A stretch of DNA of 64,000 nt from an uncultured Chloroflexales bacterium (GCA_937925925.1 CALANA010000091.1:1-64000), one strand, 5' to 3'. Counted from the first letter of the stretch, positions 14,335 through 38,506 are shown. Notes: generated by a model from the letters alone, not told the origin. Program-made: numbers and translations.

Positions 14335-14486
14335 ATGCGCATCAACGTAAGAGCAGCCGCCTTTACAACCTGTTGCTGTTCTGGCAAAAAAGGCCAGCGA
14401 AGCTGGCCTTTTTTGCCAGAACAAGAGAGATTTTTGGGGGCCTGTAGGCCCCAAATCTCCAACCGGAGGCTTATGTTGATGCGCAT
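14335..14486. repeat. Family D element (TIR ATGCGCATCAACGTAAG / CTTATGTTGATGCGCAT)
   Basis: Central 21-bp-arm hairpin GTTCTGGCAAAAAAGGCCAGCgaaGCTGGCCTTTTTTGCCAGAAC at 14378-14422. Confidence 0.8.
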
Positions 14487-14507
14487 AGGGGCAGGGGTGG
14501 AACCCCC

Positions 14508-14607
14508 ATGCGCATCAACGTAAGAGCAGCCGCTCTTACGTTGATGCGCGATTCTTGGGAGCCGTAGGCCCCCAAACCCCCGGCCGGAGGCTTACGTTGA
14601 TGCGTAT
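14508..14607. repeat. Second family D element, directly adjacent
   Basis: ATGCGCATCAACGTAAG ... CTTACGTTGATGCGTAT. Confidence 0.75.
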
Positions 14608-14885
14608 GGGCGGGCCGTGCGGGAACCCCTTCCCGTTGTCAGGACGGACATGGTGGGGTATCTGCGGCCGCGGGGACGGGACGCACTTCAAGTTTCCCCT
14701 TTTCGCCTTTGGCGAAAGGGGGCACCAGAAAAGAGCAAAAGAACTGTGCTGCCGCAGGCCCCCCCCCTTGCGGGGGGAGAATGGGGTGGGAACGACCGCG
14801 TGCCGCGTAGGCATAATCAGAACATACGGTATAATCATAACCATAAGAAACGTGAATGGTATACTCACGACAAGCCATATTGCGC

Positions 14886-15977
14886 TTACTGTGCTATGCA
14901 TCGCTCTTGTGTTGCAGCTAGAAGGGTAGCAACGATCCGCAGCGCATTGTGGCGAGCATCGAAAAACCTTTCTGCACGCTGACGCGCTGCCTGACCCATG
15001 CGCAGGCGCAGATCGGCGTCGGCGGCCAGCAGACGTAACCGTGCTGTGAGTGTGTCAACATCACCGGGTGGGATCAGAAAGCCTGTCTCGCCATCAATCA
15101 CAATATCCGTCAGGCCACCGACTGCTGTCACAATTGCTGGTAGCCCGGCCGCGCTGGCTTCCGCAGCGGCAATGCCAAAGGCCTCGCCCTCGGTTGGTAG
15201 CACAAAGACATCCGCCGTCCGAAATAGTTCCAATAGTTCCGGTGAATTTGGTTGTAAATGATGATAGCTGCGTATACCTGTAATTTGCGGTGTTTGCGAA
15301 CGTGTTACCAACACCAGTTCTGCCGTACCTGCTGGCAACTGTTGAAAAGCCTGAATTAAAAGATGACCACCTTTACGATGAAGATCGCCACCAACAAAGA
15401 GGATGTGCAACCGGTCATTTGCTGATCGGGGCTGCATCGTCCAGTATGTCAGGTCAACCCCAGGTGGAATGACCTCGATCCGTTCAGGAGCAACACCATA
15501 ATCAATTATCAATGATTGGCGTGCCCAGGTTGACCAGGGTAGTAAGCGGGTTGCGCCACGGAGCAATGCGACATTCACCTGGTGTTTGAATATTTTCAAC
15601 AACCCCGGTCGATCAGGACGATGGCCGTATTGTTTGCTCATCTGGTCGTACTGGATCGGAGTCACATCGGTACTAATCACATACGGTTGTCGTCGCGTCA
15701 GATTTCCGCCCAGAACGGCAGGAACTTGCGTATTAAAAAAGGCGACATCGCCGGGCGATTGAGCCAGACCGGCCCGTACCTGGCTACGTCCACAGAGGGT
15801 GCCACGGATATGGGCCGGTATTAGTGGAACGCGCTCCCAGAAACCATTCGGGTTCGTATACGTCACCGGAATCCATGTGGCCTGAATGTCATGTGACTCG
15901 TCAACAAAGCTTTGTAAATTGCGATAGTAGGTCAGGTGGCCGAGGTGTTGTTCCATCACGAACGTTGCCCGTATCAT
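14886..15977 (-). CDS. Glycosyltransferase family 4
   Basis: ILFVGGDLHRKGGHLLIQAFQ..EGEAFGIAAAEASAAGLPAIVTAVGGLTDIVIDGETGFL. Confidence 0.93.
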   Translation of the reverse strand: MIRATFVMEQHLGHLTYYRNLQSFVDESHDIQATWIPVTYTNPNGFWERVPLIPAHIRGTLCGRSQVRAGLAQSPGDVAFFNTQVPAVLGGNLTRRQPYVISTDVTPIQYDQMSKQYGHRPDRPGLLKIFKHQVNVALLRGATRLLPWSTWARQSLIIDYGVAPERIEVIPPGVDLTYWTMQPRSANDRLHILFVGGDLHRKGGHLLIQAFQQLPAGTAELVLVTRSQTPQITGIRSYHHLQPNSPELLELFRTADVFVLPTEGEAFGIAAAEASAAGLPAIVTAVGGLTDIVIDGETGFLIPPGDVDTLTARLRLLAADADLRLRMGQAARQRAERFFDARHNALRIVATLLAATQERCIAQ

Positions 15978-16094
15978 AACAGTTTCTCTTTACAGGTTTT
16001 GAGGGTTACAAGTGTATTGGTCGTCCCTGGGTATCTGCACTGGTACGGAGATACGCGGTGGGATCAACAAGATACATGGTACACGATTTTAATT

Positions 16095-16395
16095 AAGACT
16101 GGCGCCGTCGTCCATCACCGCATGGGTTTCGCCTGCGGCAGAGCGGTACGTTGCCTGTTTTTTGCCCCAAATTTTCGCTGTAGGCGAAAATTTGGGGCAA
16201 AAAAAGCGTTTCTTCCATGCTGCCCCATTCAGCTTCGCTCAGAGACTGCCCCGTTCGACTGCGCTCAGGGCAAGCTCTGAGCGTCGTCGAACGGGGTAAA
16301 CTCCGGCGAAAAAGCTTGTCCCGTTCGACTGCGCTCAGGGCAAGCTCTGAGCGTCGTCGAAGGAACGTTGGCTTCCAGTAACTGCGTGAGTCCTG
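16095..16395. repeat. Family A element (hairpin 16158-16204, arms TTTTTTGCCCCAAATTTTCGC)
   Basis: 21-bp perfect arms; two TTCGACTGCGCTCAG..CTGAGCGTCGTCGAA boxes; right end ACTGCGTGAGTCCTG. Confidence 0.8.
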
Positions 16396-16396
16396 T

Positions 16397-17449
16397 TTAA
16401 TGTACGATCTGGCGCAATGCATGCAAAAAACGGTCGCGTCCACCGAGTTCGTCGGCCACCCCTTGATAGTAGCGCAGGTTAAACAGGCCGCTATACGCCA
16501 TTTGCGTCAGCCGCGAGATACCGAGCATCTGCGCCAGATCGGCGAGTTGCTTGAGGCCCATATGGATCACTCGGCTCAGGGCATAGCGATCGATCCCCAG
16601 ATACACCATCTGGCGAATCAACCGATGGCGAGTGTAAAACTCTTTCCAGATAGTGGGGAGCAACCAGTCCTGTTGTTTGTCGCGTGCAAAGATGACATCG
16701 TTACGCCCATAGGCATAAGGAATATCTATCCATGAGCGAAAGCTACGTTCAGCATAGTGATAGCCAATGGCGTTGGGATTGAAGACAAACCGCAGCCCAT
16801 ACCGTGCCAGGCGATAGGCCAGTTCGACATCTTCGGCACGGCGAAACGTCGGGTCAAATCCGCCAGCGGCAAGCAAGAAACGCCGGGCCAGTGACGTATT
16901 GCCGGTATAAAATTGGCGGGCTGTGGGTTGCCAGCGACCAGCCAGCATATCAGCATACTGTTTAACCAGCATTGCCTGTTCCCACTGTACCCAGGGTACC
17001 ATGGTGAAATCAGGTGGCGTGAGCATTGGCCCCAGGACAACAATATCATCGGTGCTGGTAGTATGTGTGCCGATATGTTCCGCGATCAATGCGGGGGTCG
17101 GTACAACATCATCATCAAGGAACAGAACAAACTCGCCAGTGGCGTGCTGTATGCCATGATTGCGTGTGGCAGCAACACCCTGGTTTGCCTGGATAACCGG
17201 GATAATCGGCAGAGATGTCTGTGGTGTTTCCAGGTAAGCATTCGTTCCATCGGTCGAACCATCGGAAACGACAATGATCTCACATTGCGCCAGAGGATAT
17301 GTCTGTTGTTGCAAACCGTCAAGGACGCGCTGCAACCGTTCGAGCCGATTGTAGGTCGGAATGATAACACTGACCTTCGGTATCGTCACGGGCGTGGTGC
17401 TTGCCGTCACGTGGGTGGTATCGATTCGCGTTCGGGTCTGTTCGTTCAT
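16397..17449 (-). CDS. Glycosyltransferase family 2 (WcaA-like)
   Basis: VSVIIPTYNRLERLQRVLDGLQQQTYPLAQCEIIVVSDGSTDGT; ATG at 17449 gives ATGA overlap with the upstream gene. Confidence 0.92.
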   Translation of the reverse strand: MNEQTRTRIDTTHVTASTTPVTIPKVSVIIPTYNRLERLQRVLDGLQQQTYPLAQCEIIVVSDGSTDGTNAYLETPQTSLPIIPVIQANQGVAATRNHGIQHATGEFVLFLDDDVVPTPALIAEHIGTHTTSTDDIVVLGPMLTPPDFTMVPWVQWEQAMLVKQYADMLAGRWQPTARQFYTGNTSLARRFLLAAGGFDPTFRRAEDVELAYRLARYGLRFVFNPNAIGYHYAERSFRSWIDIPYAYGRNDVIFARDKQQDWLLPTIWKEFYTRHRLIRQMVYLGIDRYALSRVIHMGLKQLADLAQMLGISRLTQMAYSGLFNLRYYQGVADELGGRDRFLHALRQIVH

Positions 17450-18450
17450 CGCTTGCCTTCCGCAATGGCGGTGTAGTATTGGAGATAGCGTTGAGCCGAA
17501 CCGTCGAATGAGAGTTCGTGTTGCACATATGTCCGTGGCTGATAGGTATCCAGGTTGGCCCAGAAGTGCGCAAATGTGTCGGGAAAGGCGGCAAAATCCC
17601 GAAAGCGCTCGCCACATGCGGCGGAAAAGTATGGTACAGAAGATGCCGGTACCGGGTTGGGATCATATTTCTCGCGGTCAGGATCAAGCCAGAAGCCATT
17701 CTCCCAGGCCAGGATAGGCACATTCGAAGCCAGTGCTTCTTGATAAGCCAGACCCTGTGTTTCGTGTTCACACAAAAAGATCATGCTGCGCGAGCGTTGT
17801 AAGAGTGCTTTGTAGGTATCGTGATCATAGTGGCGATAGCGAATCGTGGTATACCGCAGGCCACGCTCTTGTAGCATCTGCAGGATTGGATTCAACAGGG
17901 CCGGTTCGTAATGCTCGCGGTTCCAGCGAATTTTATCGTACACCAGCACATCGATATCTTTGGGATGCGAACGTGTATCCGGCCACTGGTGCGTATCGAT
18001 ACCGGCATACCATAACACGCATCGATCACCATAGACCGGCGCAAACATTGCCCGCATCCAATCACAGGTAACGAGATAGAGCTTATAGCGTGGATCGTGT
18101 AACAGATTCGGAGCCTGTCGGGGATGATCGAACAGGCTGGGGCCGAGCAGCGCCGGGTTGGGCAAATTCCATCCATGCAACAGATGCGGATAGCCCACCA
18201 GTCCAACCGGATAGTCGGGGTGTTTCCGTGCAAGCGTATAGTTATTCAGTTGCACATCATAGCCCGCCTGGCGTAAGGCTTTCACCAGGAGTTGATACCA
18301 GACAAAGAACCCGCTCACCTTCTGTTTTTTGCTGATGGCCTGATACACTGGCCGCACAATCCGCTTTACATAACGATCATGCTTAAAAAACGTATCCTTT
18401 TCAAAGTCCTGATAAAAAAGTAAGATGACCCTATCGCGTGCCAGATTCAT
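17446..18450 (-). CDS. Glycosyltransferase (GT-B like)
   Basis: DIDVLVYDKIRWNREHYEPALLNPILQMLQERG..EHETQGLAYQEALASNVPILAWENG; 4-nt ATGA overlaps on both sides. Confidence 0.8.
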   Translation of the reverse strand: MNLARDRVILLFYQDFEKDTFFKHDRYVKRIVRPVYQAISKKQKVSGFFVWYQLLVKALRQAGYDVQLNNYTLARKHPDYPVGLVGYPHLLHGWNLPNPALLGPSLFDHPRQAPNLLHDPRYKLYLVTCDWMRAMFAPVYGDRCVLWYAGIDTHQWPDTRSHPKDIDVLVYDKIRWNREHYEPALLNPILQMLQERGLRYTTIRYRHYDHDTYKALLQRSRSMIFLCEHETQGLAYQEALASNVPILAWENGFWLDPDREKYDPNPVPASSVPYFSAACGERFRDFAAFPDTFAHFWANLDTYQPRTYVQHELSFDGSAQRYLQYYTAIAEGKR

Positions 18451-19658
18451 GCCGCTTGATCCTTTCGGGACGCAATGTGTATATCACGACTGGCTATTTC
18501 ACTGAATAATGCAGCAATCTGCTTCCCGTAGATTTTGTCAGTATAGTAGGTCTCTACGTGTTTCCGACCCTTGACTCCCATCATCTGCGCACGTTCCGGG
18601 TCGTTAATTACCGTTAACAAGGCTCGGGCCAGGGCATGATAATCACGCGGCTCAATCAAGATGCCCATCTCCCCGTCTACCAGAAACTCGGGTACGCCAC
18701 CAGCGCGTGTTGCTACTACCGGCTTGCCCATCGCCATTGCTTCCAGTGCAACCAGGCCAAACGGCTCTTCGTGACTGGGCATCGTGGACACGGTAGCACT
18801 GGCAAATACTGCGGGCAGATCGCTACGATGTCCGATCAGCTTGACACGGTGCCCAACGTTCAGTTCAGCGATCAGATTTTCGAGAGTTCCGAGAAATCCC
18901 TCCACATTCTCGCCGCCGGCCAGCAGAAAGTACGTATCAGGGCGTTCTTTGAGTACCAGCGCAGCAGCACGGATCAGGTCATCCTGGCCCTTAAACGGTG
19001 AGAGGCGTCCTGCCAGGACTACAACCGGCGCATCGGCGGGAATGTTCCATTCCCTGCGAATGCTGGCACCAGATATGGTCGGGTCATAGCGCTCAAACGT
19101 GATCGCGTTGGGAATGGTGACTAATCTGGTGGGATCAGCAACATACGGGAGAAAGGCTCGACGCATAGCTTCACTGCTCACGGTTATTTTGTGGGCATGT
19201 TTGATCACGCGCTGGTGCAACCGACTGTTTGCCAGGTAGTGTGTAATCTGAGCATTTAAGACCAGAGGACGACCGGTTAACAGCGATACGACATAGGTGA
19301 TGGTCATTCCAACCGTGCGATCAACCGTGTAAAGCACGTCGATCTTTTCGCGTTGTACCAGCGTAGTGACACGCGGCACGGTCAGCAGTGCTTCTGCGGC
19401 GCGGAGTGGTTTACCCAGGCGTGTCGGTGGATGTAACTCGCTGCCCCCCACTTCCATTGGGATTATCGTCGCATGCGGCAAATCACGTAAAAATTCATAT
19501 ACCTTGCCACGCGGGGCTGAGACGGCATAGATGTGAAAATGTGCTGGTTCCAGGTAGGGTAATCCCAGCAACAGCATGGCAATATCACCGCCTATGTACC
19601 CGGCTGCGTTAACGATTAAGATTTTTGTTTGTGACACAGGCCTGCTCCTATTCTGCAT
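18447..19658 (-). CDS. Glycosyltransferase family 4
   Basis: VLAGRLSPFKGQDDLIRAAALV..PSHEEPFGLVALEAMAMGKPVVATRAGGVPEFLVDGEMGIL. Confidence 0.95.
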   Translation of the reverse strand: MQNRSRPVSQTKILIVNAAGYIGGDIAMLLLGLPYLEPAHFHIYAVSAPRGKVYEFLRDLPHATIIPMEVGGSELHPPTRLGKPLRAAEALLTVPRVTTLVQREKIDVLYTVDRTVGMTITYVVSLLTGRPLVLNAQITHYLANSRLHQRVIKHAHKITVSSEAMRRAFLPYVADPTRLVTIPNAITFERYDPTISGASIRREWNIPADAPVVVLAGRLSPFKGQDDLIRAAALVLKERPDTYFLLAGGENVEGFLGTLENLIAELNVGHRVKLIGHRSDLPAVFASATVSTMPSHEEPFGLVALEAMAMGKPVVATRAGGVPEFLVDGEMGILIEPRDYHALARALLTVINDPERAQMMGVKGRKHVETYYTDKIYGKQIAALFSEIASRDIHIASRKDQAA

Positions 19659-19664
19659 ATGCCA

Positions 19665-20576
19665 TCATGCAAAAAGACGCTCGATGCGCCGGGTAGCGCG
19701 CACCTGCGCCCAGTTGAGTAGATTGTATGGCCGGCTGGGCACTGTCCGTATTGGTACCGGGACAGCCTGCGGGTTAATCGTCTGGGCATGGGTGCGGAAT
19801 TCATCGATGCGATGGCGTACCAGCGAGACAAAATGTCCGCCTACCAGATCTTTCGTGAATTTAGAACTGGTCTGGAGTACCGGTATCTGGCGTGCATCCC
19901 ACATCCGCGCCCCGATACGTACCCCAAGTGCTGACCAGCAGGTTTGTTCTTGCCACCAGCCCCGATGCCCGGTATAGGTAAACCGTGGTTCGTTATCGAT
20001 CAACAGATGTTCGATAAAATCCAGATCATAGGCGGTCTTCTGAAGAAAAACCAGCCCGGCATTGACCCGACTGAGCAGCTTTAAATCACCCAGTTGCCAG
20101 GGCTTGAGCGAATAGGAATCCTGGTAATCGTGCATGAAAATGATCGATGTCTGGTTGTCCGGGAGTTGAAACAGGCGCGAGAAAGGTCGAAAGAAGAGAA
20201 TATCCGTATCACAATAGGCCATATTGCCCTGCCCCAGCAAGACCACATCGAACAGTTTCAGCCCCAATACCGATGCACACCGAAAATTAGTACAGTAGGG
20301 ATAGTTACGTAACAATGACGCCAGTAATTCATCGGCCTCGGCCCGTGAGATGATGGTGACGCCGGGCAGCCCTTGCTGTAGTTTTGCAACATCCTCCGGA
20401 GTTAATGACCCATCATCGTGTAAAACAGAACGCAGTGGCTCCTGTGAGAAGGTATGGAGGGAGCTTAAACACATAAGCGCCATATCAACATCACGATGGC
20501 AGATCAAACTATGCACTTCTTGAACAGGGGGACTGGCCTGCATATGAGACTCCTTCACGGTTTTTCGGCTATGCAC
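19665..20576 (-). CDS. Putative glycosyltransferase (nucleotide-diphospho-sugar transferase-like)
   Basis: Bears YCDTDILFFRPFSRLF DxD-like motif; sits in a glycosyltransferase operon. Confidence 0.7.
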   Translation of the reverse strand: MHSRKTVKESHMQASPPVQEVHSLICHRDVDMALMCLSSLHTFSQEPLRSVLHDDGSLTPEDVAKLQQGLPGVTIISRAEADELLASLLRNYPYCTNFRCASVLGLKLFDVVLLGQGNMAYCDTDILFFRPFSRLFQLPDNQTSIIFMHDYQDSYSLKPWQLGDLKLLSRVNAGLVFLQKTAYDLDFIEHLLIDNEPRFTYTGHRGWWQEQTCWSALGVRIGARMWDARQIPVLQTSSKFTKDLVGGHFVSLVRHRIDEFRTHAQTINPQAVPVPIRTVPSRPYNLLNWAQVRATRRIERLFA

Positions 20577-20664
20577 GGGTTCTTGCGATGTTCATCATCT
20601 CCTACACGCTTGTCATTCTAATGAATACGACCGCATAGGAGATCAATATTTTGTAAGGTTACTC

Positions 20665-20781
20665 GTAACCGTTCAGGTGGGGTGGTCAGGAGGGGCAACG
20701 CCCCTCCTGAAGTCTCTTCGGTTTTGCGGGGACTGCAGGCCCCCGCATCCCCGCCGGCGCAGGTACCACCTGAACGGTTAC
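20665..20781. repeat. Family B element with perfect 16-bp TIR GTAACCGTTCAGGTGG / CCACCTGAACGGTTAC
   Basis: Read directly; 117 bp; close copy at 63377-63492. Confidence 0.9.
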
Positions 20782-20783
20782 GG

Positions 20784-22154
20784 TTACTCAGTACTCAATG
20801 ACCAGATCGCAATATCGCGTACATGCCAGCTATGCCCCAGGTTTTCGCCCCGGATCTGCACCGAGGTGATACCGGCTGGTACAGGTGTCCAGTATGACTT
20901 GAAGTGATACCCTTCTGGCCGTTGCTGCACCTGAAGTTGCGCGGCTTCCCATGTACGGCCACCATCGAAACTGACCTGCAGGTTCGTCGCTGCGGCGGCA
21001 AAGCGCAGGTGTGCATTGGCCGGAGCCGGGGCCGGAAAATGCACGTCAGGACTGGTGGTTGCATCGACAAAGCGTTGATCGGCATGGAGCATGGTGAAGG
21101 GACGGGAGGGATGCATGCTGACATTATCCCAATGCCAGGTGTTCGGATGGCATTCGTCAAAGGGGCATTCTTTGCGTGGTGTATAGGAATGATGCCCAAA
21201 CTGCACAATCCCCTGACTCCAATCCAGTTCGGGAATGGTGTTGTCAATCCACCAGAAATTATAGTCGGGCATGCCAAATTTGAGATGCGTACGCGAAATA
21301 CGCAACTCAAAGGTATCACGCCGCTGGGCGCTGGGGGTCAAAAAGTCTTGATAGCCGCGCCACCAGTTCTCGCCATCAACTGCTGTTACCTCAAAGTTGC
21401 GTACCACTGATCCGCGAAAGACGGTACCGTCGTTATGGTGCCCCATCACGATGTGAATGGCATGCCGCGGTTCACCGCTCAGATCCGGCATCCACAGTTG
21501 TAACGGTAATTGCAAATGATCCTGATAGGGCGTAATCCAGAAGCTCACCCAATCGCGGCCAGATGTGCGTTCAGTTGACAGATCAAAGCGAATAACCGCT
21601 TCCCCATCGGAGAAGTCTACCATATGATCGGGTGTAAGATAAATAACGCCATATCCCGTGGCATTGATGGCGGTCATCATGTGATTACGACAAATAAAAA
21701 CAGCATCCTCATAGGCGCTGATCGGATGGCTGGCAGGCGGTGGCGCGCAATCACTCCCATGGGCGGCCTGCATCGGTTCCAGCGTTTTCCAGGTATCACC
21801 ATCGCGGGAATGAATCGTGATGTCCCAATTATCTGGCCGCCATGGCTGGGGTTGCGCGGGATTGCCATCAAATGTTTCCAGAAAAGACGGCGTTCTGCCA
21901 TCAGTATCAGGGGCGTAATCGGAGTCGGGATCGGGATCGATATCGATATCAGGATCAGGAGCAGGATCGGGGACGGGGTTAGAGGCCGCATGCTGTCCCT
22001 GCATAATAAGTGCGAGGAAAATCTTGTTGTCTGACCGGGTGCCTTGTGCTGGCAGATGATGGGTAGCTAACAGACGGGCAAGCGAGATCTGGACCAAAAA
22101 GGTGAACAACAGGATGCTTACCAGTATAACTGGTTGCTTGATTTTATGAATCAT
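20784..22154 (-). CDS. Secreted/anchored protein with DPDPD linker and carbohydrate-binding-like domain
   Basis: N-terminal TM MIHKIKQPVILVSILLFTFLVQISLA; DPAPDPDIDIDPDPDSD linker; FDGNPAQPQPWRPDNWDITIHSRDG. Confidence 0.75.
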   Translation of the reverse strand: MIHKIKQPVILVSILLFTFLVQISLARLLATHHLPAQGTRSDNKIFLALIMQGQHAASNPVPDPAPDPDIDIDPDPDSDYAPDTDGRTPSFLETFDGNPAQPQPWRPDNWDITIHSRDGDTWKTLEPMQAAHGSDCAPPPASHPISAYEDAVFICRNHMMTAINATGYGVIYLTPDHMVDFSDGEAVIRFDLSTERTSGRDWVSFWITPYQDHLQLPLQLWMPDLSGEPRHAIHIVMGHHNDGTVFRGSVVRNFEVTAVDGENWWRGYQDFLTPSAQRRDTFELRISRTHLKFGMPDYNFWWIDNTIPELDWSQGIVQFGHHSYTPRKECPFDECHPNTWHWDNVSMHPSRPFTMLHADQRFVDATTSPDVHFPAPAPANAHLRFAAAATNLQVSFDGGRTWEAAQLQVQQRPEGYHFKSYWTPVPAGITSVQIRGENLGHSWHVRDIAIWSLSTE

Positions 22155-22289
22155 AGAATATGGATACTCCTGGATTATCAACACGACGTAGTGAGCTAAG
22201 AAATCAGACCTGATCACTGCTGGTTTTTCGTGTACATCCTGGCCCTGCGCACGTTTGCTTACGCGGGACATCTGCGGATTGATTATTTT

Positions 22290-22588
22290 AGGACGTACGC
22301 GGTCGTCCATCACCCGATGGGTTTCGCCTGCGTCCGGGCGGTACGTTTCCTGTTTTTTGCTCGACATTTTCGTCTACGGCGAAAATGTCGAGCAAAAAAA
22401 GCGGTTCTTCCACGCTGCCCCCTTCGGCTTCGCTCAGAGCTTGCCCCGTTCGACTGCGCTCAGGGCAAGCTCTGAGCGCAGTCGAAGGGGGTACTCCGGC
22501 GAAAAAGCTTGTCCCGTTCGACTGCGCTCAGGGCAAGCTCTGAGCGTCGTCGAAGGAACGGGAGCTTCAAGCAACCACGTACGTCCTG
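22290..22588. repeat. Family A element (hairpin 22353-22399, arms TTTTTTGCTCGACATTTTCG)
   Basis: Ends AGGACGTACGCGGT / ACGTACGTCCT; two TTCGAC boxes. Confidence 0.85.
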
Positions 22589-22590
22589 AT

Positions 22591-23214
22591 TTATGCATCG
22601 AACGTTTTAATTGCACGAGCGGGCACACCGGCCACTAATGTATGCGGTGGTACATCACGGTTGACCACACTCCCGGCCGCAACAATTGCCCCTGCTCCGA
22701 TGGTAACGCCGGGGAGAATGGTCGAGCGTGAACACAACCAGGTACCGGCACCGATGGTCACCGGTAGCCGTTGGGGTGGCCCGACGCGACGCTCTGCGCT
22801 CCCAATGTCATGCGTCGTCGTCAGTATCATCGTTTCGTGGCCCAATCCAACGCGATCACCAATAGTAATGGCGGCCCCCAGTTCCAGCACACAACCAATA
22901 TTGATCCAACATTCGCGGCCAAATGAGAGACGTTGTGTAATATCACCAGTACCGGTAATCGTAGGCATACCCCAGATGACAGTGCCATGACCGACATTGA
23001 ATCCCGCCATGCGTAGCGCATAGGCACGCAGGCGACTGCCAGCATATAGTGGTAATGGCGTAAGCAACAACTGCATCAGTAAAAGACGCGGATGAAATCC
23101 TTGTAGTTCTTCACGGGCTACTCGTTCTAGATGCCAGGGCGTGAACTGGCGCTGACCATTTGCATGCACCGTGTATTGCCGTTGATGTATTCTTCTCGTC
23201 ACAGGCAGCCTCAT
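22591..23214 (-). CDS. Left-handed beta-helix acyltransferase (WcaF/Maa-like)
   Basis: Hexapeptide repeats ITIGDRVGLGHETMI..VTIGAGTWLCSRSTILPGVTIGAGAIVAAGSVVNRDVPPHTLVAGVPARAI. Confidence 0.93.
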   Translation of the reverse strand: MRLPVTRRIHQRQYTVHANGQRQFTPWHLERVAREELQGFHPRLLLMQLLLTPLPLYAGSRLRAYALRMAGFNVGHGTVIWGMPTITGTGDITQRLSFGRECWINIGCVLELGAAITIGDRVGLGHETMILTTTHDIGSAERRVGPPQRLPVTIGAGTWLCSRSTILPGVTIGAGAIVAAGSVVNRDVPPHTLVAGVPARAIKTFDA

Positions 23215-23219
23215 TTCTA

Positions 23220-23382: not shown

Positions 23383-23406
23383 TCATTTCTTACTCCAATG
23401 CAGCAT

Positions 23407-25128: not shown

Positions 25129-25255
25129 TTTCTTGCTCCACATCTTCGCCGTAGGCGAAAATGTGGAGCAAGAAACAGGAAACGTACCGCTCTGCCACGG
25201 GCGAAACCCATGGATGGCGTGATGGACGACTGCATCAGTCCTACGATAGAGATGT
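25125..25255. repeat. Family A element fragment (hairpin 25129-25175, arms TTTCTTGCTCCACA..TGTGGAGCAAGAAA)
   Basis: 22-bp arms with a single mismatch. Confidence 0.75.
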
Positions 25256-29644: not shown

Positions 29645-29647
29645 GCA

Positions 29648-29935: not shown

Positions 29936-29981
29936 GGTGGGTCAACGAACGTCCTGTCAGTTTAGAAAGGCCATACAGCAT

Positions 29982-31175
29982 TCAAGAGTCATTGCGAGCA
30001 GTACGTACCCAGCCATGCTGATCGCGTCCGATCAGCACGCGCACATACAACCAGATCTTCCAGGCGATAAAGGCGGGCGCATACAGCAATGCCTGATAGA
30101 GCTTGCGGGGTGCCCGTGCCAGAATCAGACTGGCGACAATGTAGATAATCTGCCCCAGAATGGTACCTGCACAGAGGATGGTTGCTCTAACACTCTGAAG
30201 CGCTGCCGCTGCCAGCAAACAGACCAGGCTGCCAATGGTCACGATTGAAAATGGCGGAATGAGTTGCTCCACTGCTGCATCGAAGAGCAGAAAGTTGCGC
30301 CTGGTCAGAGCGGTGCGCAAGAGACGGGGCACATACTGGCGCACCATCTGCAACCGTCCGCGTTCCCAGCGGGCATTTTGTGATTGTGCTGCCCGTAGTG
30401 TGCCGGGCATCTCGGCCCAGACGACAGCATCGGGCGCAAACATAACGCGCTCGCCGCCCTGAATGAGCGCCATATGGTACTCAATATCTTCGGTCAAGGA
30501 GGCTGGCCAGCGATACCGGCGCATAATATCGGCCCTAAACACCATCCCGTTGCCCTTCAGTCCGGCTGAACCACCGAGTACCATGCGCCCCTGTGGGCGC
30601 ACATAGTGTACCGCCATCAGCGCAATCGAGCGCAGGCTGGCACTCCAGGAGGCTTCGGGATCACGCACGGCGTAATATGCCTGAATAACGCGCTCGCCTC
30701 GTGACAGTCGAGCATCCATGACCGTTAAGAAGTTCGGCGAAACAATGGTATCGGCATCAAGAATAACCATTGCGTCATGGGCATCACCGCGCTCCCAGAT
30801 CCGCTCTAGCAGCCACTCCAGCGCATAGCCTTTGCCAAGCCGTTCGGTATTGGTGCGTTCGTGAACGATTGCCCCGGCTTGTCGCGCCAGTTCGGCGGTG
30901 CGGTCGGTGCAGTTATCGGCCACCACGTGGATCGCGTACAGTGTGGAAGGATAATCGAGCTGATGCAGGTTCGTCAGTAATGTTGGCAGCAACCGCTCTT
31001 CATTGTGAGCCGGTATCATGAACAAAAAGCGCGTATCTGGTGCCCGGCCACGGGCGGCTGTTCGTCGGGGCGCAAACCATGCTGCGCCTGTCAGCAGCAA
31101 CAAATAGCTGACCATGGCCGCCAGGATACCAGCGATGAGCCAGACCACTCCGCGTGCTAGTGAGATAATGCGCAC
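29982..31175 (-). CDS. Membrane glycosyltransferase family 2 (cellulose synthase-like)
   Basis: FMIPAHNEERLLPTLLTNLHQLDYPSTLYAIHVVADNCTDRT..ILDADTIVSPNF; QNARWERGR motif; C-terminal TMs. Confidence 0.92.
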   Translation of the reverse strand: MRIISLARGVVWLIAGILAAMVSYLLLLTGAAWFAPRRTAARGRAPDTRFLFMIPAHNEERLLPTLLTNLHQLDYPSTLYAIHVVADNCTDRTAELARQAGAIVHERTNTERLGKGYALEWLLERIWERGDAHDAMVILDADTIVSPNFLTVMDARLSRGERVIQAYYAVRDPEASWSASLRSIALMAVHYVRPQGRMVLGGSAGLKGNGMVFRADIMRRYRWPASLTEDIEYHMALIQGGERVMFAPDAVVWAEMPGTLRAAQSQNARWERGRLQMVRQYVPRLLRTALTRRNFLLFDAAVEQLIPPFSIVTIGSLVCLLAAAALQSVRATILCAGTILGQIIYIVASLILARAPRKLYQALLYAPAFIAWKIWLYVRVLIGRDQHGWVRTARNDS

Positions 31176-31218
31176 GAGTTTCTATCCTCTCCTCAGAACA
31201 TGGCAACAGTGTAACGTT

Positions 31219-32310
31219 TTAATGGGTTACTGCCTCGCCGTTTGTCTGAACGCTTGCCACCACACGACTCAGGCGAGCCGTATAGTGATCCAGGCTCATT
31301 TCCTGTTCAATGCGTCGCCGTCCAGCCTGACCCATCCGTGCTGCCTGATCGGGATGGGTCACCAGTTGCATGATCGCCGCTCGTAGGGCATCAGGGTCGC
31401 CCGGCGGAACGTACAGTCCGGTCTCGCCATCGATCACTACGTCGGTCTGACCAGGTGTGCGCGAACAGATGACCGCCCGCCCCATCGCCATCGCTTCTAG
31501 AATCGCCGTCACACCCGCCTGATAGTTGACATTCAGCAACGGCATGACCACAAAGCGGCTATCGGCATACAGTTGGCGTAGTTCATACTGCGAAAAGCGC
31601 TGCACCGTAACATTTTCGGGAATATGCTGTCCTTGCGTGCTATCCGCTTGCCTGGCCCAGGGACTGGCAGCCGCAATAACCACCTGGATGTCCAGGCCAC
31701 GCACAGCCTGAATCAGGGTGGGATAGTCACGTGACTCCAGACCGACCGAGCAAATCATAGGGCGGGAGGTCGGGTTGGGGGTTACCTTGTCGGGCGCGAA
31801 AAAGTCAGCATCGACCATAAAGGGTGTAAAGACCACCCTCTGAGCAGGTACCTTCCAGCGGCGTTGGATAAACTGTTGTTGCCAGGTGGCATACACCAGA
31901 AAGATATCGACATGGCTCTGCAAGCCAAGCACGTCAAACAGCAACATTTTTTTGCCCACCGACAGGATGTGGACGATCATCACATGTCGTGCGCGGTGAC
32001 CGGCGATGGTGGCATACTTCAACAGAGTGGCGAGCGGAATACCCACTTGCTCACCGTCGGTAAAGATAACGTGATAGTGTCGTCGGCGACAATAGCATGC
32101 CCAGGCCAGCAACAGATTCGGGCCAGACAGACGCTCCAGCAGCCATCCGAACCAGCCGCTGTTGCGACGCGCCGCGGCATAGTCCATAATATCGGCTTCA
32201 AATGCCTGGGCCAGTTCAAAGTAATCAGCGCGTGGCCGCGCGCCTTGAGCAATCTTTTCAACTGTGTCGGGGGCGATTACCCCGGATACCGTCAACAGCA
32301 CCTGTGCCAT
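31219..32310 (-). CDS. Glycosyltransferase family 4
   Basis: MPLLNVNYQAGVTAILEAMAMGRAVICSRTPGQTDVVIDGETGLYVPPGD; likely start MAQVLLTVSG at 32310, overlapping the upstream gene. Confidence 0.9.
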   Translation of the reverse strand: MAQVLLTVSGVIAPDTVEKIAQGARPRADYFELAQAFEADIMDYAAARRNSGWFGWLLERLSGPNLLLAWACYCRRRHYHVIFTDGEQVGIPLATLLKYATIAGHRARHVMIVHILSVGKKMLLFDVLGLQSHVDIFLVYATWQQQFIQRRWKVPAQRVVFTPFMVDADFFAPDKVTPNPTSRPMICSVGLESRDYPTLIQAVRGLDIQVVIAAASPWARQADSTQGQHIPENVTVQRFSQYELRQLYADSRFVVMPLLNVNYQAGVTAILEAMAMGRAVICSRTPGQTDVVIDGETGLYVPPGDPDALRAAIMQLVTHPDQAARMGQAGRRRIEQEMSLDHYTARLSRVVASVQTNGEAVTH

Positions 32311-33418
32311 AGCGTACCTTACTTTCAATGCGTGCTGTATCCGCCTCCTGTTTGAGCAAATCCAGCAAACGATCGGCATTGCGTTGCGCATCAAATTCAC
32401 GCGTCACCAGTTCGATCGCCCGTGTGCCCATATCCAGCCGCAGTATCGGATTTTCGATCAGTCGTCTCAGCGCCGTAACCAGTGCCGATACATCGCCTGT
32501 CGGTATCAGCAACCCGGTTGTACCATCTTGTATAATCTCAGGAATAGCCGCTATCCGTGTGGCTATTCCTGGTAAACCTGTGGCCCCGGCCTCCGAAAGT
32601 ACCATGGGCAAGCAGTCGCCATGGGTTGGCAGGCAAAAGATGTCGCTATTATAGTACAGTTGTTTGAGCGGCGCACTGTTGGGCTGCATATCGTTATAGA
32701 CAAATAGCCCTGGCTCGGCAGGTAAGGTATCGCGTGTCACCAGATGCAACTCCACGTCTGGCGAACGCACGGCCCGAAAAGCCTCGAGTAGCAACAGACC
32801 ACCTTTGCGCTCTAGATTACCACCCACAAACAAGATTTTCACTGGCCCATCGTGTGCTACACGTGGTGTTGGACGTAGCCACTCGCTGGTGTTCACGCCG
32901 GGTGGGATGACAGTTATTTTATCTGCGGGAACGTCATAGTCGTCCACCAGACCTTGCCTGGCCCACGTACTCCATGTGACGAGTCGTCGTGCAGCCCGAA
33001 AACAGTCCCGATTCATCCGCCACTTGGTGTGTTCTAGCCATGCCGGGCCACGTCTATGGCTATAGGCTGCGCCCAACGCGTCGTACTGGAGCGGTGTGGC
33101 GTCTAACGAGACAATACTAGGAATACGCTTGATCCAGTTGGTGGACAGCACGGCCGGTACCTGGGTATGAAAGAACAGGGCATCCAGTTGCGTCCGGCGG
33201 GTCATATCTGCCACCAGCCGTCGGGCGCGTACACCAGCCCGCACTGTCCAGTTACTTCTGAAAAGCGGGATATACCCACCAATCCCTGGTGTTTCCCAGG
33301 GCACCAGCCCCCAGCAAGCTTGAATATCCGGGTCACGCGGCACATTCGCCCGCAGATTGCTGGCATGCGTGATATGGCCCAGAGCCTGCTCAAGAATGAA
33401 ACCAATGCGATAGGTCAT
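32258..33418 (-). CDS. Glycosyltransferase family 4
   Basis: ILFVGGNLERKGGLLLLEAFRAV..LPTHGDCLPMVLSEAGATGLPGIATRIAAIPEIIQDGTTGLL. Confidence 0.92.
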   Translation of the reverse strand: MTYRIGFILEQALGHITHASNLRANVPRDPDIQACWGLVPWETPGIGGYIPLFRSNWTVRAGVRARRLVADMTRRTQLDALFFHTQVPAVLSTNWIKRIPSIVSLDATPLQYDALGAAYSHRRGPAWLEHTKWRMNRDCFRAARRLVTWSTWARQGLVDDYDVPADKITVIPPGVNTSEWLRPTPRVAHDGPVKILFVGGNLERKGGLLLLEAFRAVRSPDVELHLVTRDTLPAEPGLFVYNDMQPNSAPLKQLYYNSDIFCLPTHGDCLPMVLSEAGATGLPGIATRIAAIPEIIQDGTTGLLIPTGDVSALVTALRRLIENPILRLDMGTRAIELVTREFDAQRNADRLLDLLKQEADTARIESKVRYGTGAVDGIRGNRPRHS

Positions 33419-33638
33419 GCTGATTTTTTCCTTGATAGCATGGAATGTAGGCGATAACGACGGGTATGGCAACCAATATCAGAGTGACTGACACCATCCT
33501 GTGGCTGTTGTTCGGCCATTGACCGATGAACCAGGCAGGGTTGCACTACTCCACGCCAGGATGGCCCCCTCTACAGTATGTACCATTCTGACACTAAACG
33601 AGTTACACTCCTACTTGAGCTGGATGAATATTTGGTAA

Positions 33639-33690
33639 TATAGCAATCCTACATGAGTTGTAAAGACCGGAGGCCCGACTTGACGCTGGT
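33639..33690. repeat. Truncated family E element (TATAGCAATCCTACAT..)
   Basis: Left TIR intact; sequence changes to family C-type end (ATACCGTTTCGACTTTCCCCTGGG) at ~33692. Confidence 0.6.
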
Positions 33691-33831
33691 AATACCGTTT
33701 CGACTTTCCCCTGGGAGCGCGGGCAGTGTGCCCTCGTCTCCGCGATAGAGATCGTCCTGTCCTCGCTCCCAGGTATCCGGTGTTATACCAATTTGTCTTA
33801 GGCAGTTGGTTCGTCTTACCCTTCTTACTGT

Positions 33832-34017
33832 CAGGATGTACGCGGTGGGTCATCCGCTGACCAGGTGCGCCTGCGGCAGCGTGGAAGAAACGCGTTCTTT
33901 CCCCCCCCAATTTTCGCCGTAGGCGAAAATTGGGGGGGGAAAAACAAGAAAAGTACCGCTCTGCCGAAGGCGAAAAAGACGTCTTGTTTGATCTACCGCG
34001 TAACTCGTGTTCATGAC
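33832..34017. repeat. Family A element (perfect 21-bp-arm hairpin 33898-33942, arms TTTCCCCCCCCAATTTTCGCC)
   Basis: Left end CAGGATGTACGCGGTGG; right end CCGCGTAACTCGTGTTCATGAC. Confidence 0.85.
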
Positions 34018-34095
34018 AAGAACATGCGGAATGTTCAAGTCAAAACGGTGTTACTCCACGCGTGAACAGGTACAACAACGCAACAATCGCTGTTC

Positions 34096-34124
34096 TTGAC
34101 AAATTTAACTCACAATGTTACCAT
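34096..34124 (+). promoter_or_regulatory. Candidate sigma70 promoter TTGACA-N17-TACCAT for cysI
   Basis: Consensus -35 hexamer with 17-nt spacer; ~280 nt upstream of the cysI ATG. Confidence 0.4.
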
Positions 34125-34241
34125 TTTCCTATCAACGGCGCAGGAGACCACCATACCGATCCAGACGCCGTAGCCCGTTATAATCAATATGCGACACATT
34201 GCATCGTAGTGTATACTTAGCGCGGATTTTGCTCTAGCGTA

Positions 34242-34394
34242 GTACTATAACGAGCCTTCCCCTGGAACGAGATTGCGAGGGGGCGTAGAGACATTGCATG
34301 CAACGTCCCGCCGCCGCCCCTCCCCTATGGGGGGATGTAGGGGGGAGGGGCGCAGCGAAGCCGCGCCGAGACGAAGTCTCGTTGTAGTAGTAGG
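34242..34394. repeat. Family C element ending 7 nt before the cysI ATG
   Basis: GTACTATAACGAGCCTTCCCCTGG .. CGAAGTCTCGTTGTAGTAG; ATTGCATGCAACG core. Confidence 0.75.
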
Positions 34395-34401
34395 GAGTCA
34401 T

Positions 34402-36132
34402 ATGCATAGTGAGACACCACTGGACGGAGATACGTTGTCAAAAGTTGAGCATATCAAAGTCAACAACGATGGTCTGGGTGGTTTGCTCTTTGAAGAGATT
34501 CTGGATGCAACCACCGATCATATCTCAGAAGACGCCTATCAACTGCTGAAGTTTCACGGGAGCTATCAGCAAGATGACCGTGATCTGCGTAAGGAGCGCA
34601 AAAAGCAGGGTCTTGATCGGGCCTGGCAATTTATGGTGCGCACCAAAACGCCCGGAGGTCGTATGACCGCCGAGCAATATTTGCTGGCGGATGAACTGGC
34701 GACACGCTATGCCAATAACACGTTGCGTATCACTACCCGCCAGGCTTTCCAGTTTCACGGCGTTGGGAAGGCCAATCTGAAACCGTTGATTCGCGCATTG
34801 AATGGACGCTGGATCAGCACCTATGGTGCGTGTGGCGATGTGGCGCGTAATACGCTCACGTGCCCGGTAGCCGATCTGTTGCCCGGTAACACCTTTGACT
34901 ACCAGGCACTGGCCCAAGAGGTGAGTGATCGCTTCTTGCCCGAATCCACGGCTTACTATGAACTCTGGCTCGATGGCGCGAAAGTGCTGGCCGACGGAAA
35001 AACCATAAAGATCGAACCCAATCGCCACGAGTCCTTTTATGGCCCGAACTATTTGCCGCGCAAACACAAGATCGGTATTGGTCTGCCTCACGACAACTGT
35101 ATTGACCTCTTTACCCACGATCTGGCGCTGGAGGCAGTGCTTGCCAGCGATGGAACCCTCAGTGGCTTTAACCTGGTGGCGGGTGGCGGGTTGGGTAGCA
35201 CACATGGCAAAGCGGAGACCTTTCCGCGTCTGGGTGACCGTATCGGATTTTTGCCACCGGACAGAGCGCTGGCGGTATTGGAAGCCGCGACGGCTATCTA
35301 TCGTGACTATGGCGATCGTACGAATCGGCGGCATGCGCGCCTGAAGTATGTGCTTGAAGATCGCGGTGTAGCCTGGTTTCAGCACGAGTTAGGTCGGCGA
35401 TTAGATGGGCCGCTGGCACCGCCCGCTGCGGTTCCCCGCTATAGTGTTGAAGATCATCTGGGCTGGCAGCAGCAGGCCGATGGGCGCTGGATGGTGGGCA
35501 TCTGGATCGAGAATGGGCGCATTAAGGATACACCACACGACCAGAGTAAACGCGGCCTGCGGGCGATCATAGAGGAGTTTCAGCCCGAAATCCGTCTAAC
35601 GGCGCATCAAAATATTGTGCTGGTAAATATTGCGCCGGAAGACAAGCCGCGGGTTGAGTCGTTGCTGGTATACTACCAGCTGGCAACGAGCGATGGGCAG
35701 GCTACCGGGCGGGGTACACTCAGCCAGTTGCGGCGCTATGCGATGGCTTGTCCTGCAATGCCCACCTGTGGGTTGGCAGTGGCTGAGAGCGAACGATTTT
35801 TGCCAGACGTTATCAGTGCGCTGGAGCAACGCGGCTATGGCGATGATCGGGTCTGGATTCGTATGAGCGGGTGCCCAAATGCTTGCTCGCGTCCACCCAC
35901 CGCCGAGATTGGCATCATCGGGCGTAGCCTCGGTTTGTACAATGTCTATCTGGGTGGCAGCTTTGAAGGCACACGCCTTGCACAGCTCTATCGTGAACAT
36001 GTTCGCGCTGATGTCCTGGTGGATCTGCTGGCAGACGTTCTCGATCAGTGGAAACGTGAACGGGCCGAGGGTGAAGCCTTTGGCGACTGGGCGGCGCGTG
36101 TGCTGTGGAGTTCAACGGCGGAAGCAATGTAA
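34402..36132 (+). CDS. cysI: Sulfite (nitrite/sulfite) reductase hemoprotein
   Basis: TRQAFQFHGVGKANLKPLI, ACPAMPTCGLAVAESERFLPDVI, MSGCPNACSRPPTAEIGIIG (siroheme/4Fe-4S motifs). Confidence 0.92.
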   Translation: MHSETPLDGDTLSKVEHIKVNNDGLGGLLFEEILDATTDHISEDAYQLLKFHGSYQQDDRDLRKERKKQGLDRAWQFMVRTKTPGGRMTAEQYLLADELATRYANNTLRITTRQAFQFHGVGKANLKPLIRALNGRWISTYGACGDVARNTLTCPVADLLPGNTFDYQALAQEVSDRFLPESTAYYELWLDGAKVLADGKTIKIEPNRHESFYGPNYLPRKHKIGIGLPHDNCIDLFTHDLALEAVLASDGTLSGFNLVAGGGLGSTHGKAETFPRLGDRIGFLPPDRALAVLEAATAIYRDYGDRTNRRHARLKYVLEDRGVAWFQHELGRRLDGPLAPPAAVPRYSVEDHLGWQQQADGRWMVGIWIENGRIKDTPHDQSKRGLRAIIEEFQPEIRLTAHQNIVLVNIAPEDKPRVESLLVYYQLATSDGQATGRGTLSQLRRYAMACPAMPTCGLAVAESERFLPDVISALEQRGYGDDRVWIRMSGCPNACSRPPTAEIGIIGRSLGLYNVYLGGSFEGTRLAQLYREHVRADVLVDLLADVLDQWKRERAEGEAFGDWAARVLWSSTAEAM

Positions 36133-36327
36133 CTGCAGTCTGGCACAGGTTAGCAAGAGAGTGCATACGCCCATCGACCTCGTTTACAGTGTCATTGCTA
36201 ATATGTAATGATTTGACACACCAGACAAATAGGGTAAGATTCTGGTCGTATAGCGCTCCTTATTCATAGGAAGCAACATCTGATGCCATTGTACATATAA
36301 CCAGTATGGGGCAAGTGCGTTGAGGCA

Positions 36328-36375
36328 CGGACATAACAACAGACGATCGTCTGTCGTTGTGTCCGTTTTATTTTG
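36328..36375 (+). terminator. Near-perfect 19-bp-arm hairpin followed by TTTTATTTT between cysI and cysH
   Basis: CGGACATAACAACAGACGA / TCGTCTGTCGTTGTGTCCG, 2 mismatches, then U-rich run. Confidence 0.6.
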
Positions 36376-36392
36376 GAAGGACGGGTTTTGGT

Positions 36393-37115
36393 ATGAGATC
36401 ACTGACAGCAGAGGATGACGTTGCCCAGATCTGGACCGAAGATGAGATAGGTGAACTGAACGAACGATTCCGGGCATGTTCGACCGAGACGCTGCTTGAC
36501 TGGGCAACTGCTCGATTCGGTCAGGACATCGTGTTAACCTGTAGCTTTGGTGGCCCATCCGGTATGGTCTTGCTCGATATGGTGTCACGCCTGGAACGTG
36601 GTACGCCGGTCGTTTTCCTCGACACTGATTTACTCTTCCCTGAAACCTATGCGCTGGCCGAGGCGGCTGCCCAACGGTATGGGGTCACTATCCAACGTCA
36701 GCGCCCGGCTTTGACGCTGGCTGCACAGGATAAGATGGAAGGGCCACGCCTCTACGAGCGTGATCCAGACCGTTGTTGCGGCATCCGCAAAGTGGCTCCG
36801 TTAGCCGAGGCGTTGCGCCCCTATCAGGCGTGGATCAGCGGCATTCGCCGTGATCAGGCGCAGAGCCGGGCTGCGACGCCACTGATCCAGTGGAATACAC
36901 GTCACCATCTGCTCAAGATCAATCCGCTTGCTTTCTGGAATGATCGTGATGTCTGGCATTATATTCACACGCATGATGTACCCTACAACCCCCTGCTCGA
37001 TCAGGGTTACCCCAGTCTGGGCTGTATGCCCTGTACGCGACCGGCCAGTGCCCAGTCACCGCGCGCAGGCCGTTGGAACGGTTTTGCCAAAACGGAATGT
37101 GGCATTCACGTATGA
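36393..37115 (+). CDS. cysH: Assimilatory APS-type reductase (phosphoadenylyl-sulfate reductase family)
   Basis: TCSFGGPSGMVLLDM; RCCGIRKVAPL and LGCMPCTRP (4Fe-4S cysteine pairs); C-terminal KTECGIHV. Confidence 0.93.
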   Translation: MRSLTAEDDVAQIWTEDEIGELNERFRACSTETLLDWATARFGQDIVLTCSFGGPSGMVLLDMVSRLERGTPVVFLDTDLLFPETYALAEAAAQRYGVTIQRQRPALTLAAQDKMEGPRLYERDPDRCCGIRKVAPLAEALRPYQAWISGIRRDQAQSRAATPLIQWNTRHHLLKINPLAFWNDRDVWHYIHTHDVPYNPLLDQGYPSLGCMPCTRPASAQSPRAGRWNGFAKTECGIHV

Positions 37116-37146
37116 GCTATGGCTAAAGGTCAGAAAGAGGTATTAT

Positions 37147-37378
37147 GACCAACGAGCCAGCGTCGCGGCGAGGGGGGCGGGGGCCTGCTGCCCCCACTCC
37201 TGTTCCTTTTCTGGTGCAGCGTGGTGAAGCCGCACCCTGTCCCCGCAGGGAGGGGCCGGGGGGTGTTGCATGCAATGCCCCCCGGCCCCGCGACATCGCG
37301 TTCCAGGGGAAGGCTCGTGGTCGTAGGCGCAAGAAGCATCAGCCGAACCAACGGATGAAGGCACATTGGTATAAGGCG
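37147..37378. repeat. Family C element (palindrome GGCCGGGGGGTGTTGCA/TGCAATGCCCCCCGGCC at 37254-37287)
   Basis: Reverse orientation relative to the 3.4-kb copy; same order of hairpins. Confidence 0.75.
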
Positions 37379-37541
37379 CTGCCGGGTCAGATTCGCGGTC
37401 GAAGGACAACACAAGACCTCGGATTCGAGCGATGGTGCAACTGTAGCCTATACACGAGTTACATTGTTACTCTGTATAGCCTTCTTTGTTGCCTTTAGCA
37501 GCCAGGTATCACCACATATGGTCGTGCCGATACATTGGGTA

Positions 37542-37973
37542 TTACTCAGCTTCAAACGGCCCGATCTGCTGCTCAAGGCGGACTAATTCGGCATGGAAGC
37601 CCGCAAAATTCTCCATGCCACTGAGCATTGCTACCTTCTGCTGATCGCGTGCGTCTGGTTCCAGTAGTGCCCGATACGTCTGCAATCCCTGATCCATCGC
37701 CGCCAGGAATGCTTGATGCACAGACTGACAGGCTGGTGGTACCGGTAATTGCTGTGCCGTGAGGCGAATGGCCTCAAGCCGTGTCGCAAGGGGCAATGTT
37801 GCTGGTGGCTGATTTTCTTCATCGGCAGCTTCTGCTTTGAATGCAACCGATGCATGCTGGCTTTCGGTATGCCACAGCTTTAACAGTGCCATCGCTGCGC
37901 CTAGATAGGCGACAATGGCGGGTTCAATCGGTTGATCTGATTGAGACATCGGCACCATGCGTTCTCCTTCCAT
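37542..37973 (-). CDS. Conserved hypothetical protein
   Basis: Start from MEGERMVPMSQSDQPIEP; upstream part of the longest ORF is repeat-derived. Confidence 0.6.
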   Translation of the reverse strand: MEGERMVPMSQSDQPIEPAIVAYLGAAMALLKLWHTESQHASVAFKAEAADEENQPPATLPLATRLEAIRLTAQQLPVPPACQSVHQAFLAAMDQGLQTYRALLEPDARDQQKVAMLSGMENFAGFHAELVRLEQQIGPFEAE

Positions 37974-38090
37974 AGCAATCCTACATCTGTTGTGAAGCAC
38001 CAGAGTCCAGGCGAAAGCCGGGACAGAGCGAGATCCAGGCGAAAGCCAGCTTGGGGATAAGCTTACTCTATGACTGAGCCTGATCGCTAT
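37971..38090. repeat. Family E element (CATAGCAATCCTACATCTGTTGTGAAGCACC..)
   Basis: Left TIR and core GAGTCCAGGCGAAAGCC. Confidence 0.6.
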
Positions 38091-38098
38091 TATACAAA

Positions 38099-38327
38099 AG
38101 GACGTACACAGTCGCGTGAACCCAACGTTCCTTCGACTACGCTCAGAGCTTGCCCTGAGCGCAGTCGAACGGGACAAGCTTTTTCACCTGCGGCAGCGTG
38201 AAAGAGACACATTCTTTCCCGCCACATTTTTTCGCCTTCGGCGAAAAAATGTGGCGGGAAAAACAGAAAAAGGAGCGCTCTGCCGCAGGCGAAAACGGTC
38301 AGTGGATGACCCACCACGCACGCCTGG
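38099..38327. repeat. Family A element (perfect 22-bp-arm hairpin 38215-38261, arms TTTCCCGCCACATTTTTTCGCC)
   Basis: Left end AGGACGTACACAGTCG; one TTCGAC box. Confidence 0.85.
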
Positions 38328-38354
38328 ACATGCGGAAGGGGTTCCCCCTGCCCT

Positions 38355-38506
38355 CTGCGCATCAACGTAAGCCTCCGGTTGGGGGGTTGGGGGCCGTAGG
38401 CCCCCAAAAGTCTCTCTTTTTCTGGCACAAAAGGCCAGCTTCGCTGGCCTTTTGTGCCAGAACAGCAACGGGTTGTAAGGATGGCAACCCTTAACGTGAT
38501 GTACAT
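38355..38506. repeat. Family D element (hairpin TTCTGGCACAAAAGGCCAGC ttc GCTGGCCTTTTGTGCCAGAA)
   Basis: TIR-like CTGCGCATCAACGTAAG / CTTAACGTGATGTACAT. Confidence 0.75.

Follow-up and report, generated by a model that had tools for sequence, protein, structure and literature searches.

Mirrored palindrome arms in a short MITE-like element family and in orthologous hairpins of Chloroflexales probably reflect template switching between arms

Introduction

Hairpins can arise and be maintained through template switching (Monttinen and Loytynoja 2022, PMC8794818), although in the rRNA examined in that study CM plus loop inversion was extremely rare and the role in stem maintenance was less clear. 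In yeast genes, template switching causes homogenisation of palindrome arms and inversion of the spacer (Abraham and Hazkani-Covo 2021, PMC8604942), and quasipalindrome mutations are described in E. coli (e.g. PMC7202029). The hairpins described here show both of these products, but the earlier cases concern yeast coding sequences or laboratory reporters, whereas ours are differences between species in intergenic palindromes of Chloroflexota, including those of a mobile family. The signs predicted in PMC8794818 (several compensatory changes at once, loops that are inverted and stems that are extended) are all seen. Loop inversions are frequent at these loci, which are free of the constraint on rRNA: with a looser cut-off they affect 14 of 63 orthologous loci.

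The mobile family, here called D, is like REPINs (PMC3116915) and RU/ERIC-type elements (PMC2229807) in being short, geneless, intergenic and multi-copy with terminal inverted repeats. It differs from them in its multiple hairpins, of which one is optional, and in the long direct repeats at its flanks. Unusually long target-site duplications of 16-28 bp, near in length to the 16-27 bp direct repeats of D, are reported for the IS1202 group of insertion sequences (PMC10132070), the sole comparable case that we found and a lead only: IS1202-family ends begin with TGT and the elements have their own transposase, whereas the ends of D read CCCCTATGCGC or TATGCGC and D is geneless. In the literature we found neither a described element family with the ends of D nor anything relevant on Chloroploca or Chloroflexus repeats; D is probably undescribed, and its flanking direct repeats are unusually long.

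The usual evidence for a conserved RNA structure is covariation, which in such elements cannot by itself show function. With the natural hairpin set assembled here it can be tested directly whether one mutational step or selection gives rise to compensatory changes.

Anatomy and distribution of the element family

The window (the whole stretch of DNA analysed, 64,000 nucleotides) is contig C91 of the draft genome G000 (5.2 Mb in 316 contigs) of an uncultured Chloroflexales bacterium whose relatives include Candidatus Chloroploca asiatica (Chloroflexota, order Chloroflexales). Searching this genome with D copy 1 of the window (Table 1) returned 86 matches, which resolve into about 27 copies, complete or partial, that measure about 110-175 nt. 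The consensus, CCCCTATGCGCATCAACGT-AAGGGCTGCCGCCCTT-AAAACCCGTTGC-optional palindrome-GAGATTC-TTGGGGGCCGTAGGCCCCCAA-ACCCCCAACCGGAGGCTTACGTTGATGCGCATAGGGG, runs through the end repeats, hairpin I, an optional central palindrome and hairpin III, and carries no gene. Its length is about 110 bp without the central palindrome and about 160 bp with it; the terminal inverted repeats measure 15-22 bp and there are two or three internal hairpins. With its terminal inverted repeats, short length, lack of genes and many copies, D is best explained as a short non-autonomous, MITE-like mobile element.

Table 1. Positions of D copies, their parts and related repeats (plain numbers are window positions)
Feature	Position	Strand	Description
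Direct repeat (19 bp), left member, beside D copy 1	14317..14335	+	GGCACGGGTGGAACCCCCA
D element copy 1	14330..14491	+	162 nt; terminal inverted repeats, hairpin I, central palindrome, hairpin III
Central palindrome, D copy 1	14377..14423	+	TGTTCTGGCAAAAAAGGCCAGC-GAA-GCTGGCCTTTTTTGCCAGAACA
Hairpin III, D copy 1	14433..14455	+	GGGGGCC TGTA GGCCCC
Direct repeat (19 bp), right member, beside D copy 1	14490..14508	+	GGCAGGGGTGGAACCCCCA
D element copy 3	14503..14614	+	Tandem to copy 1; without central palindrome
18-bp hairpin, 4-nt loop, in D copy 3	14510..14549	+	GCGCATCAACGTAAGAGC-AGCC-GCTCTTACGTTGATGCGC
D element copy 2	38351..38510	-	160 nt
Hairpin III, D copy 2	38387..38408	-	Triloop TAC, element orientation
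Central palindrome, D copy 2	38420..38462	-	Element orientation: TTCTGGCACAAAAGGCCAGC-GAA-GCTGGCCTTTTGTGCCAGAA
Palindromes of the ..TTTTCGCCGTAGGCGAAAA.. family	9244-9290, 16158-16204, 22353-22399, 25129-25175, 33898-33942, 38215-38261		Loops GTA, GAA, TTC, TGTAG, others
D copies with internal duplication	G000:C97:21056-21239 (L068), C298:5420-5606 (L059), C11:340-523 (L065), C162:3648-3945 (L055)
Hairpin III arrays in G032	L106 (C331), L107 (C872), L108 (C170), L110 (C642)

Direct repeats of about 16-27 bp occur at many D insertion sites; they often start with GGGG and end with CCCC, which makes their exact boundaries uncertain. They reach 27 nt at C262 (one mismatch), 24 at C97, 21 at C6 and 19 at C146; beside copy 1 they measure 19 nt, with one mismatch between the two members, the right of which overlaps the start of copy 3. 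The mean local score for direct repeats was 12.6 when the flanks of each copy were paired with each other and 6.3 for mismatched pairs, as for target-site duplications. The flanking repeats look like a long target-site duplication, and the 19-bp repeat around copy 1 is likely to be one. No pair of D ends brackets a transposase-sized gap in the 316-contig draft, and D is presumably moved by a transposase acting in trans. Mobilisation by a RAYT was considered and rejected: there is a single Y1_Tnp gene (on C106), and the hairpins within 1.5 kb of it are not D.

D-like elements were found by DNA search in 8 of 41 relative genomes, and by the pattern of hairpin I in 4 of 18 genera of the taxonomic family (0 matches when the pattern was reversed). 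G001, from the window's own genus, gave no D match at E <= 0.001. The distribution is thus patchy across related Chloroflexales genera, among them Candidatus Chloroploca. In these genera the central palindrome keeps its layout with quite different arms (GTGCTGGCGAAAACGGCCAGC-GAA-..., GTGTTGGCGGC-GAA-... and GGTTGTTATTTGGCGGC-GTA-...).

In some D copies a hairpin III segment of about 38 nt is duplicated internally as a direct repeat, with unrelated spacers of about 33-38 nt in between; the duplicated hairpins at C162 carry inverted loops (TAC, GTA, GTA). A CRISPR-like reading of these four loci was dismissed, as the repeat is D's own hairpin III segment, present in 2-3 units with differing spacers. 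The relative G032 has this segment in tandem arrays at a spacing of about 41 nt with CTTGGGGGCCGTGCCCCCAAACCCCCGCCGAACGGGAGGAT-like units, and the 2-4 nt at the unit centre vary and invert (CCAAGC/GCTTGG in L107). The copies at C51:5817 and C195:7926 of G000 each have one arm of a further inverted repeat on either side (e.g. AGGGCGCGGCACG .. CGTGCCGCGCCCT), an arrangement that resembles insertion of D into a hairpin loop.

Copies of the element in the window

The two central palindromes of the window had been picked out in a preliminary description, which reported mirrored differences between their arms; both are present where it placed them, inside D copies. The surrounding ends that it likened to GCGCATCAACGTAAG..CTTACGTTGATGCGC are real too, though imperfect in each copy (the right end of copy 1 is CTTATGTTGATGCGC and the left end of copy 2 is GTACATCACGTTAAG). 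Its contrast between 'gaa' and 'ttc' loops is an effect of orientation: copy 2 is on the minus strand, and once turned round its loop is identical. Copies 1 and 2 are inverted copies, 82% complementary over 175 nt, and fold strongly, copy 1 as single-stranded DNA (z = -12.4) and copy 2 as RNA (z = -8.9). Hairpins as strong as the D palindromes number 26 in the window, against 0, 0, 0, 1 and 0 in five block-shuffled windows. Placed in the same orientation, the 20-bp stems of copies 1 and 2 differ at one pair, A-T to C-G, which is mirrored, and the outermost G-C pair of the copy 1 palindrome shows a one-sided loss in copy 2. With a single mirrored pair and one one-sided loss, the window copies alone are thin evidence for mirroring.

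Copy 3 is near-identical to copy 1 on the left, where copy 1 goes on as CTTTACAACCTGTTGC. Copy 3 has instead the 18-bp hairpin, in which the left end and hairpin I come first and the reverse complement of the two comes next; its pairing is perfect, and its right half is the left end in reverse complement. The sequence is suggestive of a stem extension that may have arisen by fold-back copying from hairpin I. Such an origin would take one event, and recombination with a right end, which shares CTTACGTTGATGCGC, would take two.

Covariation among D copies of the same genome

We aligned 12 distinct central palindromes of G000 over 20 stem pairs, leaving out a contig-cut copy on C190. Cells were paired in 97.9% of cases, and 5 of the 20 pairs had changed on both sides, in 6 cells (shuffled mean 0.8; none of 500 shuffles reached 5). 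The covariation score was 0.117, compared with 0.045 in shuffled alignments and at most 0.047 for slid structures, and no slid register gave any both-sided change. Of the five mirrored pairs, three changed by transversion, two from A-T to C-G and one from G-C to T-A. One-sided changes occupy 8 cells, a G-U pair being kept in 3 of them and not in 5. Read in the element frame, both loop orientations are frequent: the triloop of hairpin III is GTA in 15 cases and TAC in 13, and the loop of the central palindrome is GAA in 5, TTC in 4 and otherwise in 4 (a sixth GAA loop, on C256, was missed by the search pattern).

Orthologous hairpins in Chloroploca

Paralogous copies cannot separate cause from descent, and orthologous loci were therefore compared. 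Within the window's own genus orthologues were unusable, G001 being too diverged (69-80% identity), and the decisive test was thus carried out in Chloroploca by using orthologous regions of G004, G027 and G041 (92.9-93.9% identity over 317-385 kb). Hairpins found in any of the three genomes were mapped through their flanks, which gave 52, 31 and 26 loci per pair. The three genome pairs, which share loci and are not independent, had 30, 22 and 13 compensated pairs where 5.0, 3.7 and 2.7 were expected, in each case above the maximum of 5,000 shuffles (13, 10 and 9). For G004/G027, the 30 stem pairs that had changed on both sides with pairing kept were drawn from 1,028, and one-sided stem changes numbered 76; arm correction is incomplete, since one-sided changes outnumber compensated ones.

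Mirrored stem changes are thus well above chance without being the rule, in Chloroploca as among the D copies (8 one-sided and 6 mirrored cells). Asked whether changes break pairing as often as they keep it, which is how the preliminary description had proposed to judge the matter, the claim taken literally would be in trouble. The proper yardstick, however, is the number of compensated pairs that independent change would give, about 1 to 5, and the data clearly exceed it. The further suggestion that the phenomenon extends beyond one family holds: mirrored changes occur in D and, in related genomes, also in single-copy hairpins unrelated to it. Judged on all genomic copies, the observation of mirrored palindrome arms is confirmed in substance.

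Loop inversion was scored on the centre of each hairpin, defined as the loop plus 3 nt on each side, in 109 centre comparisons between Chloroploca orthologues. Ten of the centres were at least 3 bases nearer to the reverse complement of the orthologue than to the orthologue itself, against a mean of 0.02 in a null with the same number of changes (0 of 3000 replicates). One 14-nt centre is inverted exactly, from TCTTCCCGCTCAGC to GCTGAGCGGGAAGA, and clear inversions were also seen from GAA to TTC at two loci and from TTT to AAA at two loci. Stems changed in blocks as well. The outer stem at G004_C68_7000:51760 is different in every one of the three genomes (GAAGACACGACAAAG, GAAGAGGACACAAAG and GACGACGACCCAAAG) and is paired each time by its own other arm, with one mismatch in G004. 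At G004_C9_1500:48734 the outer 3 nt are re-matched, the far arm tracking a rearranged near flank. Across the Chloroploca loci, both arm homogenisation beyond independent substitution and in-place inversion of the spacer occur. Single-copy orthologous hairpins show covariation, loop inversion and block co-change together, as template switching predicts.

Mechanism and alternative explanations

DNA template switching between arms, a mechanism already known, probably produced the mirrored arms of the MITE-like family D and is likely to act on other palindromes of these genomes as well. Long, near-perfect D palindromes would fold at replication forks, where DNA polymerase could copy one arm off the other or cross the centre on the wrong strand. 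Arm copying would make matched pairs out of one-sided changes, be they single mutations or whole blocks, and crossing the centre on the wrong strand would leave an inverted loop; stems could then drift in sequence yet stay paired, without selection for pairing. At the Chloroploca loci the excess of in-situ mirrored changes, the exact centre inversions, the block co-changes and the transversion-rich compensation are observed; we infer that polymerase template switching, over other routes of arm-to-arm copying, produced them and that it also operates in the window's own genome. The centre GCGAAGC occurs in 18 of 76 GCnnnGC triloop hairpins of Chloroploca, against 2.5% of background heptamers, and the DNA mini-hairpin d(GCGAAGC) is unusually stable (PMC4686876). 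This enrichment would favour folding as single-stranded DNA, with the limit that the hairpins are often related copies and so not independent evidence. We put forward tentatively the broader possibility that the intergenic palindromic elements of these Chloroflexales genomes evolve mainly by self-templating, with frequent arm copying and centre inversion, stem drift at the background rate, pairing restored without selection, and covariation as a mutational signature that would not be evidence of functional RNA structure.

The word 'compensatory' in the preliminary description hints at selection for structure, under which the palindromes would be functional RNA or DNA hairpins (a terminator, an mRNA stabiliser or a protein site) whose pairing is restored by compensatory substitution. 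The excess of paired double changes and the strong folding agree with this, as does the presence, for some compensations, of a one-sided intermediate in the third genome (e.g. TA/CA/CG at G004_C71_3000:70004), which counts against template switching in that ordinary two-step substitution gives the same. However, the G-U route predicts transitions, and the opposite was found: compensated changes in G004/G027 comprise 12 transitions and 18 transversions and one-sided changes 50 and 26 (Fisher p = 0.018; the compensated changes cluster in 17 hairpins and are not fully independent events). Stems are not visibly slowed either, since 144 of 2056 stem sites differ (7.0%), no fewer than in the anchored flanks (5.2%, a figure biased low) or overall (6.1%). 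Selection on hairpin function predicts neither loop inversion nor block co-change. Rfam covariance models gave no match in the window at the gathering threshold, and the central palindromes of copies 1 and 2 lack a T-run on either side, on which ground we rejected canonical intrinsic terminators. Loop inversions, block co-changes and the transversion excess point to a mutational mechanism, and we regard selection for structure as unlikely.

Among mutational routes other than template switching, recombination between the arms of a cruciform would invert the loop, and arm-to-arm mismatch repair in the extruded cruciform would mirror the stems. The products would be alike, an inverted centre and homogenised arms, but at 12-28 bp the arms offer little length for homologous recombination, and stem extension into flanks (G004_C9_1500:48734 and the copy 3 hairpin of the window) suits polymerase copying better; we consider the cruciform route improbable. 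Ectopic gene conversion, by which copies would be overwritten from family members that are already symmetric, fits the high-copy families and the variation of whole hairpins between loci. It leaves the symmetry of the donors themselves unexplained, and compensation and inversion occur also in hairpins with no other strong copy: six that were checked had no other strong match in the three Chloroploca genomes, which excludes conversion between family copies as their source. Overall this explanation is very unlikely. Still less credible, to the point of being barely worth entertaining, are loop flips as assembly artefacts caused by k-mers shared between palindrome arms. Every compared genome is in many contigs and short-read assembly is likely, but the 12-28 bp arms are shorter than the usual final k-mers and a whole hairpin is shorter than one read; moreover, stem changes cannot come about in this way, and both loop orientations are found among paralogues within one genome.

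Other repeats in the window

In the ..TTTTCGCCGTAGGCGAAAA.. palindrome family (Table 1), the outer arms are almost wholly different between copies yet complementary. Repeats of the CCTTCGACTACGCTCAGAGCTTGCCCTGAGCGCAGTCGAACGGG type, which are nested with other families of hairpins, occur in either orientation at 22418-22491, 9109-9243, 38128-38193 and 39298-39400, and one is inserted within the D copy at C262 of G000. At 62701-63055 an array of a 17-nt unit (CGCAGCATCGTGCGGAG..) is interrupted by TGTCATGCTGAGCG units and shows higher-order periods of 79 nt. Short tandem arrays were also noted at 4244-4513, 4932-5371, 9550-9607 and 10918-10975, with units that are GC-rich and of 30 nt and 9 nt, or of 8 nt (CGTTGAAA/CGTTGGAA).
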